42,976 bases of DNA from a virus. The stretch spans positions 1-42,976 of IMG/VR virus record IMGVR_UViG_3300036768_000242; one strand, 5' to 3'. This document shows positions 23,097-33,663 of the stretch, in pieces. Position numbers and translations under genes: made by a program. The notes beneath the pieces were generated by a model. That model saw only the letters and a program-made list of their open reading frames with translations. It was not told the origin of the DNA and made no database searches. Position 1 is the stretch's first letter. The number at the start of each line of letters is the position of its first letter.

Positions 23097-23162
23097 ATGG
23101 CCACCACTCTCTACGGCGCCCGCGTGGTGCCGGGTAGAAACACGCCCAGGGTCTCGCGGTGA
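23097..23162 (+). CDS. 21-residue peptide between minor tail genes
   Basis: ATG 23097 directly follows the previous TAA. It encodes MATTLYGARVVPGRNTPR plus three residues and stops in a TGA that overlaps the next GTG. It may be a real micropeptide, a leader that couples translation of the next gene, or the remnant of a longer protein. No ribosome binding site of its own is evident. Confidence 0.4.
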   Translation: MATTLYGARVVPGRNTPRVSR

Positions 23163-24658
23163 CCGGCCCGTTGCTGCTCGCTCGGAGCCCCGAAGATCAA
23201 CTGGCCCAGTGGAAATCGGTTCTCGCGTCGGGCAACGTCGCGCAGATCGCCTACCTGGCAAGGCTGATGGCCGAGTCCCGCTCGGCGGTGGACACCACGT
23301 TCCGGTTCACGGTCTGCGACAAGTTCTGGACGCCGATCGGCAACATCGGCGAAGAGCTGATGGAGGCCTCCGGCACCGATCCGCGCAACGACGTGCCCAC
23401 CGCCAAGCTGATGCTCAAAGGCTCCAGCGACATCGTGGACATGTTCATGGAGTGCCGCAAAACGATGGTCGGCTGCATCGTGGAGACGGCCGGGCTGACG
23501 TTCCCGTTCTACACCAAGAATCACTCGCTGAAGTACAAGCGGGGCGAGGGGACCACGGGAAACGTTGTCCTCAACGGTATTTGGGACATCCTGTCCTACC
23601 TGGTGATTTGGCCGACGTGGTGGCTGCCGATCCAGACCCAGCCGTTCTCGCACGCGATCTACATGTGGGCGCTGTGCACTGTCGCCGAATCGATGGTGTC
23701 GGACTGCGCGCTGCGCATCCAGTCCGGGCTCAACGAGTTCGTCAACAACGCGTTCTCGCTCAACCCCGATATCCGGGCGTGGTTCGGGCGGATCCTGCAG
23801 ATCGGCGCCGGCAACGGTATCAGCCAGCAGTCGCTGTTCAGCATCCTGCACACGCCGGTCTATGTGAAGCGAACCAACCCGTTCCTTGATTCGAGTCCCC
23901 TTGTCGGGCGGACGGTTCGGATGGAGACGTGCGCGGCGGTGATCAAGGACATCTCCCGCGCGTACGGGGTGGACACCCGCATGGATTTGTGGCGTCCGGG
24001 TGACCCGCAGCCCGACCCGTGGTCGTTTCTTTCGGCACCCACCTACGTGTTCTCCACCGCCGACCGCTCCCAGATCGAAGGCCCCACGCACACCATCGCG
24101 GACTCGGTGATCCGCACGGTGATCGATCTGGGCGGCTCGTTGGGCAACATCCTGGCCCCGGTGATCCGCGAGGTGCCCGGCATGGCCGGCACCTACGACG
24201 CGCCGATCCTTGGGGTGAAGCATCAACCGCCCTGGGCGACAGTGATCGTGCCCGACGACGGCGAAGACGGATCGGTCATCGAGGCCGAGATCAACGACCA
24301 CACTCCCGAGGGCTGGCAGCACATCATCGGGGGACGATCGCCCAAGTGGGCCGGTGCCCCCCTGGGCGACTGGGGGGGCACCGGCCCACAGGGCAACTCC
24401 ATGACTCAACGATCTGATCAACGCCACGACCGCCTGGCTGATCGACAGCCTCATGATCGTCGTCGGCCTGGCTGGTATCCCAAGCGACCTGCTCGCCGGG
24501 TTCCTCAACAATTCGTTTTTCGCGTTCCAACTGATCCAGCACTACGAGCGCCGCGCGGAAGTCGGCCCGTACCACCCGGCCATAGAGGTCTTCCACGCGA
24601 CCAGCTCAGCTCCCTACTCAGTGGAAACGCTGTTCGCCTTCATCAACGCGCTATTTGA
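23159..24658 (+). CDS. Minor tail protein (Gp37-like), N-terminal part; native frame lost after about residue 397
   Basis: GTG 23159 (GTGA overlap). Residues 1-397 are a recognisable actinophage minor tail protein of the ReqiPepy6 Gp37-like type (SVLASGNVAQIAYLARLMAE, KLMLKGSSDIVDMFMECRKT, VIWPTWWLPIQTQPFSHAIY, HHIIGG-like GGRSPKW). After Trp at 24347-24349 the frame enters a 55-nt hairpin-containing insertion and then runs out of frame to 24658, as an Arg-rich stretch unlike the family. The family-like remainder is in another frame from 24405. Confidence 0.8.
   Translation: MTGPLLLARSPEDQLAQWKSVLASGNVAQIAYLARLMAESRSAVDTTFRFTVCDKFWTPIGNIGEELMEASGTDPRNDVPTAKLMLKGSSDIVDMFMECRKTMVGCIVETAGLTFPFYTKNHSLKYKRGEGTTGNVVLNGIWDILSYLVIWPTWWLPIQTQPFSHAIYMWALCTVAESMVSDCALRIQSGLNEFVNNAFSLNPDIRAWFGRILQIGAGNGISQQSLFSILHTPVYVKRTNPFLDSSPLVGRTVRMETCAAVIKDISRAYGVDTRMDLWRPGDPQPDPWSFLSAPTYVFSTADRSQIEGPTHTIADSVIRTVIDLGGSLGNILAPVIREVPGMAGTYDAPILGVKHQPPWATVIVPDDGEDGSVIEAEINDHTPEGWQHIIGGRSPKWAGAPLGDWGGTGPQGNSMTQRSDQRHDRLADRQPHDRRRPGWYPKRPARRVPQQFVFRVPTDPALRAPRGSRPVPPGHRGLPRDQLSSLLSGNAVRLHQRAI
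24347..24404 (+). repeat. Perfect 16-bp inverted repeat and insertion interrupting the minor tail gene
   Basis: Left arm TGGGCCGGTGCCCCCC (24347-24362), loop of 10 nt, right arm GGGGGGCACCGGCCCA (24373-24388), then 16 nt ending in TGA (24402-24404) just before the family-like sequence resumes at CTC 24405. The extra stretch is 55 nt (24350-24404), so it shifts the frame by one. The left arm begins at the last family codon (TGG). Confidence 0.8.
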
Positions 24659-24959
24659 CAGTAGGGGCTACACGAGCGCACTGGTACGGATCAACGTCAG
24701 CGGCCCGGACGCTCAATTCATCTTGGGCAGAGACATTTTCAAGGGCGGCTTGATGTCGGTGGTGTACCGGGGCCGCCGAAAGATGCTGACCGACTACATC
24801 GAAATGGTCATGTGGCGGATCGGCCCGGATGTGCGGGAGCTGATCGTCCAGGTCGGCGACGGCAAGCGTGACGAGGCCCCACTAGCCAAACATCAGCGCT
24901 GGCTCACCGCAGCGTTCGAAGCAATCAACGTCGCAACCCTCGCGCCCCAAGGCGGATAG
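24405..24959 (+). pseudogene. Minor tail protein, C-terminal part in a different frame
   Basis: Encodes LNDLINATTAWLIDSLMIVV, GFLNNSFFAFQLIQHYERR, GPYHPAIEVFHATSSAPYS, RRKMLTDYIEMVMWR and GDGKRDEAPLAKHQRW, the highly conserved end of the Gp37-like minor tail family. The frame is preceded by TGA, and the first in-frame ATG (24453) has no ribosome binding site and would omit conserved residues. So it is expressed as a continuation of the upstream gene by recoding or bypass, or it is a broken gene, or the DNA sequence is wrong here. Confidence 0.7.
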
Positions 24960-29474: not shown

Positions 29475-29691
29475 TCGTCTGATTGACCACCTGGCCGCCG
29501 CGGTGGCCCGCTACGTCGCCGACGCGGTGGTCGCCGCGCTGAACGAGTTGGTGCCGCGTATCGCTGACGAGGTGGTGCGCGGGGTGACCGCACACATCAC
29601 CGATGCGATACCCGGCACGCTCGACGACCGCGTCGCAGCGAAGGTGATCGAATATGTGCGCGGCCTGTTCCCGTTCGGGGGTGGGCGGTGA
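29467..29691 (+). CDS. Small helical protein before the endolysin
   Basis: 74 aa; ATG 29467 with GGGAAGGGGAG upstream. Almost wholly helical (LDRLIDHLAAAVARYVADAV), with no clear membrane span. Stop overlaps the endolysin GTG, so the two are probably co-expressed. Could be a small lysis accessory or tail protein; unknown. Confidence 0.65.
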   Translation: MLDRLIDHLAAAVARYVADAVVAALNELVPRIADEVVRGVTAHITDAIPGTLDDRVAAKVIEYVRGLFPFGGGR

Positions 29692-31073
29692 CCGAGCAGA
29701 TCCTGCCCTACGACCGCGCGATCGTTTCACAGGAGACGGGTTGGTCATGTGGACCAGCCGCGACGCAGGTGGTCCTCAACTCCCGGGGCATCGTCGTCAG
29801 CGAGGGCACGCTATTGGCCGATATCGAGGCCATCGAGAACCCTGGCCGCGGCGACGACCGGGACGGCACCGACGACATCAGTTTGATTGAGCGGGTCCTT
29901 GACCGGCGGGTGCCCAATGCCCGCTATACGTCCGTGTTCCTGCGGCAGGATCCGCCCACGGCCGAGCAGAAGGATGCTCTGTGGCGCAACCTCGTTCGCA
30001 GCATCGACGCCGGTTTCGGTGTGGTGATGAACTGGTGGGCGCCTGACGGCAACAAGCCCCGCGGCGTGAAGGGCTCGGTCAGCCCCCGCTACAGCGCCGG
30101 TCTGACGAAGCATTACGTCGCGTGCATGGGCTACGACGACAACCCCGCGCTACGGGCAGTGTGGATCGCCGATAGCGGTTTCCAGCCGCAGGGCTATTGG
30201 ATCAGCTTCGACCAGTGCGCGTCGCTGATCCCGCCGCAGGGTTACGCCTACGCCGAAGCTATCCCGGCGACACCCGCGCCGGCTGATCCGGTCTCGCTGC
30301 TGGCTCAGGCGATGTCGCCGACCGGGGTGGCCCGCGATCGCCTGGTCGCGCTGCTCCCGGCCGTGTCGGCGGCGCTGCGCGACTGTGGATGCACCACTGT
30401 GGGCAGAGCGGCGATGTGGTGCGCGCAGATCGGTCACGAGTCCGGCGGGCTGCGGTGGATGGAAGAGATCGCCGACGGCTCGCAATATGAGGGCCGCGCC
30501 GACCTCGGCAACACGCAGCCCGGCGACGGCCGCCGGTTCAAGGGCCGCGGCCCGATCCAGGTCACCGGCCGATCCAACTACACGCAGCTGTCGCAGTGGG
30601 CGCACGCCAAGGGCCTGGTGCCGTCGCCGACGTTCTTCGTCGACGACCCCGGCCAATTAGCCTCCGACCGTTACGGATTCGTCGGTGTCGTCTGGTATTG
30701 GACCGCCGCGCGGCCGCAGATCAACAGCCTCGCCGATGCCGGCGACATCGAGGGCGTCACCCGCGCGATCAACGGCGGCCTGACCAACATCGACGACCGT
30801 CGCGGTCGTTGGGATCGCTGCCGCGCGATGGGCGATCAGCTGCTCAGCCTTGTCGGCACTGCGCAGCCTGCACCGCCCGCGCCGACTCCGCCGCCGGCCA
30901 AGCAGTTCCCGCAGGACTACACCGACCGCGAACTGCTCGAGTACGTCGCCGAGCAGCTCGGCCCGGGCCGCGACGACTGGGGCGATGACGGCGACCTTGG
31001 CCGGAACGCGGCCGGGCAACGCAGGACTTGGCGAGCGGGGCTGGCCGCGCTGATCCGCAAGGTCGGGGCGTGA
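29688..31073 (+). CDS. lysA: Endolysin (lysin A): C39-type peptidase plus GH19-like muramidase
   Basis: 461 aa, GTG 29688. N-terminal cysteine peptidase of C39 type: GWSCGPAATQVVL with nucleophile C21, then a KHYVACMGYD His and WIADSG Asp. Middle domain GH19-like: AQIGHESGGLRWMEEIADGS (catalytic-type Glu near 251) and RRFKGRGPIQVTGRSNYTQL. A Pro-rich linker (PAPPAPTPPPAK) leads to a C-terminal helical domain probably binding the cell wall. It degrades peptidoglycan at the end of infection; no signal peptide, so export depends on a holin. Confidence 0.93.
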   Translation: MTEQILPYDRAIVSQETGWSCGPAATQVVLNSRGIVVSEGTLLADIEAIENPGRGDDRDGTDDISLIERVLDRRVPNARYTSVFLRQDPPTAEQKDALWRNLVRSIDAGFGVVMNWWAPDGNKPRGVKGSVSPRYSAGLTKHYVACMGYDDNPALRAVWIADSGFQPQGYWISFDQCASLIPPQGYAYAEAIPATPAPADPVSLLAQAMSPTGVARDRLVALLPAVSAALRDCGCTTVGRAAMWCAQIGHESGGLRWMEEIADGSQYEGRADLGNTQPGDGRRFKGRGPIQVTGRSNYTQLSQWAHAKGLVPSPTFFVDDPGQLASDRYGFVGVVWYWTAARPQINSLADAGDIEGVTRAINGGLTNIDDRRGRWDRCRAMGDQLLSLVGTAQPAPPAPTPPPAKQFPQDYTDRELLEYVAEQLGPGRDDWGDDGDLGRNAAGQRRTWRAGLAALIRKVGA

Positions 31074-32997: not shown

Positions 32998-33663
32998 ATG
33001 AGCGCGCCTGAGCCCGCTCCGGCTGATCCCGCACCACCCGATGCGCCGACACAATTGGGACCGGCCGCGATGGATGGCACGACAGAATCGCCGACCTGTG
33101 ACACACCCACGCTCGAAGCGTGGGCTGACGAGATCGAACCGCCAGAACCCGAGCGGCAAACGTGGCGCAAAACGCTGATCGTTGCCGCAGCCATCGTTGC
33201 CGCCGGGCTGGTCCTGGGCTCGGCAGTGGGGGTTGGGTTCCTGCTGCGCAGTGCCCGCACCGAGCCGGTGTCGGTGCCACCTGGTACTGCTGCACAATCC
33301 GGCGGCACGGCTGAGGTCGGCGTGTCAGAGGAAGCGGACCCGATTGCTGTGCCGACCGCAGCACCACCGAGCACTGTGACCGTCGTGGCCGAACCGACGA
33401 CGGGGGCCGCCCCGCCGCCGGCCGCGTCGAACTTCTCTGACGCCGATCAGGCACTCCTCGCCACGCTGGCGTCGCGCGGGTGGAACATCTACGACCCAGC
33501 TCTCGTGGTTAACAACGCGCACGAGGTTTGTCGCCTTTTCCGAACGACACGCATGGGCGGCGACCGGGTGAACCGCGAGATAGCGGCGCAGATGGGCACA
33601 ACCGAGAGGGATGCATGGGCATTGACCTCGGCTGCGATGATCACTTACCCGAACTGCGCTTGA
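32998..33663 (+). CDS. Membrane-anchored DUF732-like protein
   Basis: 221 aa from ATG 32998. Pro-rich cytoplasmic head, one membrane helix (TLIVAAAIVAAGLVLGSAVG), a Pro/Thr-rich linker (around 85-140) and a C-terminal DUF732-like domain (DADQALLATLASRGWNIYDP; EVCRLFRTT; ITYPNCA with two Cys). Divergent from the 32441 gene with an 83-bp gap. A TAACCT 6 nt before the ATG might be a -10 of a leaderless transcript. Likely a prophage or lysogenic-conversion gene; function unproven. Confidence 0.72.
   Translation: MSAPEPAPADPAPPDAPTQLGPAAMDGTTESPTCDTPTLEAWADEIEPPEPERQTWRKTLIVAAAIVAAGLVLGSAVGVGFLLRSARTEPVSVPPGTAAQSGGTAEVGVSEEADPIAVPTAAPPSTVTVVAEPTTGAAPPPAASNFSDADQALLATLASRGWNIYDPALVVNNAHEVCRLFRTTRMGGDRVNREIAAQMGTTERDAWALTSAAMITYPNCA

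Follow-up and report, generated by a model that had tools for sequence, protein, structure and literature searches.

A 55-nt hairpin insert was identified within the minor tail gene of a mycobacterial virus. It probably belongs to a family of 49-58-nt hairpin elements that are skipped during translation and that lie in a minor tail gene conserved among mycobacterial phages and their relatives. The insert itself, the precision of its site, its independence of the reading frame, the compensatory conservation of its stem, the pairing of the stem with the take-off codon, the landing match, the conserved coding downstream and the horizontal spread could all be shown by sequence comparison. Translational bypass as in T4 gene 60, which a preliminary description of this DNA had put forward, is supported by the same comparison; no protein or RNA experiment is available.

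The interrupted gene and its hairpin

The window, which is the whole stretch of DNA analysed here, comprises 42,976 bp of an IMG/VR virus record, and the order of its tail genes is mycobacteriophage-like. One minor tail protein is encoded in two parts, by an ORF at 23159-24658 and a reading frame at 24405-24959. The 5' part matched PHROG 110 (positions 45-398) and PHROG 20512 with E 1e-190, and it is 62-63% identical to the tail proteins of many mycobacteriophages. The 3' part matches PHROG 110 (positions 399-582) and PHROG 18875 and is 82% identical to the corresponding part of L003, a relative without the insert. The PHROG 110 coordinate is 398 before the gap and 399 directly after it, and the gene had thus been correctly named a minor tail gene. 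The family-like sequence had been placed with equal accuracy, since it ends at TGG 24347-24349 and restarts out of frame at CTC 24405, with a TGA directly before the restart (24402-24404). No solved structure for the C-terminal part was found by sequence. The features of the locus are as follows.

23159-24349, plus strand: 5' coding part of the minor tail gene, 397 codons, GTG start
24332-24343, plus strand: 5' flank GGACGATCGCCC with the codon choice CGA TCG, found in all 22 carriers at this codon (site A) and in 0 of 77 insert-free relatives
24347-24349, plus strand: proposed take-off codon TGG (Trp), placed by family homology and paired in the stem base
24347-24388, plus strand: take-off stem-loop, 19-bp stem (24347-24365 with 24370-24388) and loop GCGA (24366-24369), supported by fold and covariation
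24350-24404, plus strand: gap (insert), 55 nt, non-coding, missing from L003 and 76 other insert-free relatives
24389-24401, plus strand: tail CAGGGCAACTCCA between the stem and the landing codon
24402-24404, plus strand: proposed landing codon TGA, a near match to TGG, with TG invariant among site-A carriers
24405-24959, plus strand: 3' coding part of the minor tail gene, 184 codons plus stop, from CTC

The gap of 55 nt amounts to +1 relative to the downstream frame. In the DNA, the inverted repeat is perfect as described earlier, but its arms are 17 nt long (24346-24362 and 24373-24389) and not 16. In the RNA fold, the 19-bp stem begins exactly at the T of TGG and is closed by the GCGA loop, which is of the GNRA type; the hairpin that had been noted at the take-off codon is therefore paired with that codon. 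The 111 nt around the hairpin reach -65.8 kcal/mol, compared with -40.9 ± 3.8 kcal/mol for shuffled sequences (z = -6.5), and none of 200 shuffles was as stable. Moreover, the flank GCCC (24340-24343) is able to pair with GGGC at 24391-24394. No further copy of the element was found in the window except its own reverse image. An indel in the G7 run was considered and rejected, because the upstream frame would then enter TGA 24402.

Carriers and spread of the element

By nucleotide, pattern and covariance-model searches, at least 28 phages or contigs besides the window were found to carry the element (29 with the window), and these hold 22 distinct gap sequences. Whether relatives share the 55 nt had been raised as a check, and similar inserts are present in these 28 further carriers, whereas 77 fetched relatives, L003 among them, are empty and run straight from SPKW into LNDL. 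All inserts lie in the same gene family, at the following positions.

Site A (the codon of the window; 22 carriers including the window), phages: Kersh, MadMen, Pollywog, Sabbb, Guppsters, LunaBlu, Spartacus, Renaud18, ThetaBob, Cornie, MOOREtheMARYer, Sbash
Site A, further carriers: L116; prophage-like contigs L110 and L117; contigs L087, L119 and L156-L159
One codon before site A: L130
One codon after site A: L092, L133
12 codons after site A: L017
About 33 codons after site A: L111
About 229 codons before site A: L129
Another codon than site A: L136, a bacterial genome contig, probably a prophage

Mycofy1 equals L116 over the 146 nt compared. One copy of the element was found in each phage record searched. 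Spartacus, Kersh, ThetaBob, MOOREtheMARYer and Sbash are cultured infective phages that form plaques on M. smegmatis. When IMG/VR was scanned by pattern and about 600 actinobacterial genomes were searched with a covariance model, no copies in other genes were revealed, only the tail gene family, intergenic terminator-like hairpins and chance pattern matches. A match in the major tail gene of Sparky was rejected as a chance match inside an intact gene. No published report of the element was found in the literature searched, which left out most subscription journals.

The intergenic terminator-like hairpins, with the core GGTGCCCC...GGGGCACC or close variants, were observed in actinobacterial genomes and phages (L137-L141, L104-L106 and L109). 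It is possible that such hairpins were the source of the inserted ones.

Comparison of carriers with empty relatives indicates how little DNA accompanies the element. Over the 300 nt examined on either side of the gap, Spartacus is 100% identical to the empty L027 apart from two short stretches, namely the 30 nt that precede the gap (70%) and the 60 nt that follow it (80-87%). The same pattern was observed between MOOREtheMARYer and the empty Pinnie, with the divergence restricted to short flanks. The window and L110, on the other hand, are 93% identical in the 30 nt before the gap and only 27-60% further upstream. The site-A carriers all have the CGA TCG choice, which is absent from the empty genes, in spite of the wide divergence of their genes elsewhere; only very short flanks thus travel with the element. 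The criterion for a mobile element, namely empty sites and spread between unrelated genomes, is met. No mobility enzyme of the element's own was found. An adjoining homing endonuclease was rejected as the driver, because none lies beside the gene in MOOREtheMARYer, Sbash or Spartacus, where the HNH genes are far away. Furthermore, the tails tend to complement their own 5' flanks when pooled over distinct flanks (permutation P = 0.0044), although gap by gap this complementarity is mostly not significant. It could be a trace of template switching at insertion or reflect selection for an extended stem or structure. Insertion of an inverted repeat by template switching, which had been listed as an alternative to bypass, may in this respect still describe the origin of the DNA.

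Reading across the gap

The 22 distinct gaps are 49-58 nt long and fall in all three frames; gaps of 50, 51, 53, 54, 56 and 57 nt in homologues would need other shifts than the window, or none. The in-frame gaps hold stops (TGA in Kersh, TAA in L136 and L159), so no single shift or readthrough works for all carriers. The positions of the PHROG 110 profile are contiguous over every junction tested (398/399 in the window and L117, 399/400 in L136, 169/170 in L129, 431/432 in L111). At the distant site of L129, LDRILCW before the gap and PDPFLPI after it align with the intact homologous stretch LDRITAW-PEPFLPI of L117. Skipping of the gap, by the ribosome or at the level of the RNA, is the only description common to all carriers.

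The codons directly downstream are conserved as coding sequence although no start codon precedes them. After the gap of the window, no start codon occurs before codon 17, and the preceding 16 codons comprise 6 identical, 10 synonymous and 0 nonsynonymous ones relative to L003. Sbash has 42 conserved codons between the gap and its first ATG, GTG or TTG, and 17, 15 and 14 conserved codons precede the first start in L129, L110 and L092, respectively. Between MOOREtheMARYer and the empty Pinnie, 18 synonymous and 5 nonsynonymous codons were counted downstream. The codons for LNDL, which lie upstream of the annotated Met, are retained with synonymous changes. This codon pattern indicates that the downstream half continues to be translated as the final part of the tail protein. 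It should be considered that some carriers acquired the element recently, so that their conserved downstream codons partly predate the insertion.

In deposited annotations, the gene appears as two ORFs (Spartacus, Cornie, Kersh and others) or as one ORF extended wrongly, as in Sbash (L135), where a single ORF continues in the wrong frame and the C-terminal part has no annotated CDS. L099:1840-3602 and similar GenBank records likewise show one tail gene annotated as two ORFs, the second starting from an internal Met. Position 1 of PHROG 18875 corresponds to the fifth residue after the gap, and this family appears to be built largely from C-terminal halves made by the gap.

In 21 of the 22 distinct gaps, the triplet before the resumption point and the take-off codon have the same first two bases, whereas all three bases match in only three (TGG/TGG twice and AAG/AAG). 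The changes from take-off to landing were TGG to TGA (13 gaps), TGG to TGG (two), TGG to TGC (one), TTG to TTA (three), AAG to AAG, and GTT to GTC. The earlier proposal of a TGG take-off with a near-matching TGA landing thus fits nearly all carriers. At site A the third landing base is A, G or C. Because the site-A landing codons are related by descent, the effective independent observations are about seven contexts, and six of the seven distinct insertion contexts obey the match. Five gaps (L136 and L156-L159) were discovered after the rule had been formed, and all five obey it. The codon after the take-off is GTC, GCC, GCT or GTG in all gaps, and no stop adjoins the take-off. L111 is the exception, with an exact codon boundary, the take-off AAT and no matching landing triplet found; it is possibly a broken copy, a case of a different rule or an assembly problem. 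In this metagenomic contig (L111:5051-5106), the stem was also seen to reach 5 bp further into the gene (CCTCGAAT/ATTCGAGG).

In 16 distinct stems, 98.7% of the cells are paired, and 7 of 14 pairs have changed on both sides. The covariation score of the stem was 0.367, compared with 0.119 for shuffled alignments (0 of 500 reached it) and at most 0.051 for slid ones. All three bases of the take-off codon are paired in 20 of 22 gaps. Moreover, in all seven contexts each of the three take-off bases is paired with the stem base, and the mean falls to 1.05 when stems are swapped between different take-off codons. The fold-specific covariation that had been named as a check was hence found, including the pairs with the take-off codon. 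Many loops are of the GNRA type (GAAA, GCAA, GCGA) and another subset is larger; the frequency of GNRA loops suggests selection on the RNA. A natural compensatory double change was observed in L117:3715-3770, where a core G-C pair is flipped to C-G (GTCCCCCC/GGGGGGAC).

We hypothesize that the ribosome pauses once the codon at the base of the very stable 19-bp stem has entered its P site. The peptidyl-tRNA would then release, the stem would fold again behind or inside the ribosome, and the tRNA would re-pair further downstream on a triplet that agrees with the take-off codon in two or more bases, the first two included; in the window, the Trp-tRNA would pass from UGG onto UGA. Decoding would restart at the next codon, CUC, and give a protein of about 581 aa with the junction SPKW-LNDL. 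The element itself would pass between phages with very short flanks. That the skipping takes place on the ribosome rather than at the RNA level, the order of these steps and the mechanism of spreading are inferred.

Alternative explanations and known systems

Removal at the RNA level, either by splicing of the hairpin or by RNA polymerase passing over it, would give a continuous mRNA and explains the frame independence and the exact restoration equally well. There is also a precedent, as group I introns are present in tail genes of cluster J mycobacteriophages (PMC3706429). The criterion for a group I intron, a catalytic fold with self-splicing, is not met by gaps of this length, and an Rfam search of the window gave no family at gathering score. 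To our knowledge, 49-58 nt is far below the size of any self-splicing intron. A polymerase jump by microhomology at the shared TG would leave UGA, a stop, in the TGG/TGA cases, so the Trp is kept only if the first copy is decoded and the second only paired; furthermore, the match between take-off and landing falls in the codon register. The landing match and the pairing of the stem with the take-off codon point to the ribosome, and we give RNA-level removal only a small chance, although it cannot be excluded by sequence alone. A real gene split, with halves that are separate proteins assembling together, the second made by termination-reinitiation or from its own start, is to be regarded as similarly improbable. 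The two genes annotated in GenBank would agree with it, and the annotated ORFs of Spartacus overlap as TAATG. It is disfavoured by the up to 42 conserved codons ahead of any start codon and by the retained LNDL codons, and it leaves the landing rule and the pairing between stem and take-off codon unexplained.

A +1 frameshift or stop readthrough with translation of the hairpin is conceivable in single cases, because the upstream frame of the window is open to 24655 and a +1 shift near 24404-24407 joins the frames, and because the gaps of L136, Kersh and L159 are in frame. The shift at ATG ACT suggested earlier is accordingly workable for the window alone; the homologous gap lengths demand different shifts and rule out a common one, and readthrough would meet the in-frame stops already mentioned, so this explanation is most unlikely. 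The window is a record of an uncultured virus and G-rich hairpins are hard to sequence, which would allow for a broken gene, a pseudogene or an assembly error. Chance and assembly error are excluded by independent phage records in which an insert of this type interrupts the identical codon position, and the independently sequenced plaque-forming phages likewise exclude a simple break; the compensatory stem changes and the purifying pattern downstream leave such an origin hardly credible. Finally, the hairpin could be a transcription terminator or attenuator of the tail operon that interrupts the coding sequence incidentally, and similar GGTGCCCC/GGGGCACC hairpins do stand between genes in actinobacteria and phages. 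No U-run follows it, it is positioned to the codon inside an essential-looking gene, and it is missing from close relatives; this function does not cover the landing triplet rule either and seems scarcely tenable.

Translational bypass remains the preferred explanation. We know of essentially one gene, T4 gene 60, with efficient long-range bypassing in bacteria in more than 30 years, and from this single case the features needed could only be guessed from mutants. The 22 natural variants, which differ in take-off, landing, frame and gap length and of which several are in cultured phages with a non-pathogenic laboratory host, make the take-off and landing rules and the mobile-cassette idea for bypass signals directly testable. 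Furthermore, what is annotated as a pair of genes in many mycobacteriophage genomes probably represents the two halves of a single protein, and the same probably applies to part of PHROG 18875.

In T4 gene 60, the gap measures 50 nt, take-off and landing are both GGA, and the take-off codon forms part of a stem-loop and has a stop next to it; a mobile cassette is believed to have brought in this gap (PMC11194080, PMC5009743). The element resembles it in the untranslated gap of about 50 nt within one gene, the stem-loop at and including the take-off codon, the landing match and the resumption in another frame. The gap size also fits, since sliding in T4 is still efficient to 56 nt (PMC11194080). 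Unlike in T4, there are at least 22 distinct gaps at several positions of one tail gene family, no stop stands beside the take-off codon, one long 19-bp stem is formed, the third landing base is free, the take-offs are TGG, TTG, AAG and GTT instead of GGA, and no homing endonuclease gene lies beside the insert in the three carriers examined. In mitochondria of the yeast Magnusiomyces capitatus, 12 genes contain 81 byps, which are likewise multiple short frame-disrupting inserts bypassed in translation, some with an imperfect take-off/landing match; according to their description, they do not depend on the mRNA context (PMC5009743). In contrast to these, the element occurs in bacterial hosts, in one gene family and in one copy per record searched. 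Bypass has also been proposed for an actinophage packaging gene, the terminase of Streptomyces phage Hau3, but that gap is much shorter, is linked to UUA decoding and is not a repeated hairpin element (PMC5009743). In the tape measure gene of Corndog, a mycobacteriophage tail gene with a coding gap, ribosome bypass was suggested as one of two options weighed by the authors; it is a different gene, with an HNH gene insertion and no hairpin family (PMC4351075). With more reserve than for the skipping as such, we consider it likely that horizontally spreading hairpins survive in an essential phage gene because ribosomes jump them, with the stem base and the landing triplet fitted to each site. 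They would then be the equivalent in bacteria of the mitochondrial byps, and the first set of gene-60-like bypass signals that is repeated and can be tested.

Elsewhere in the window, a protein with a DUF732 domain is encoded at 32998-33663 (Pfam E 1.3e-7), and a probable endolysin with Peptidase_C39_2 and chitinase class I-like (glycoside hydrolase 19) regions at 29688-31073.
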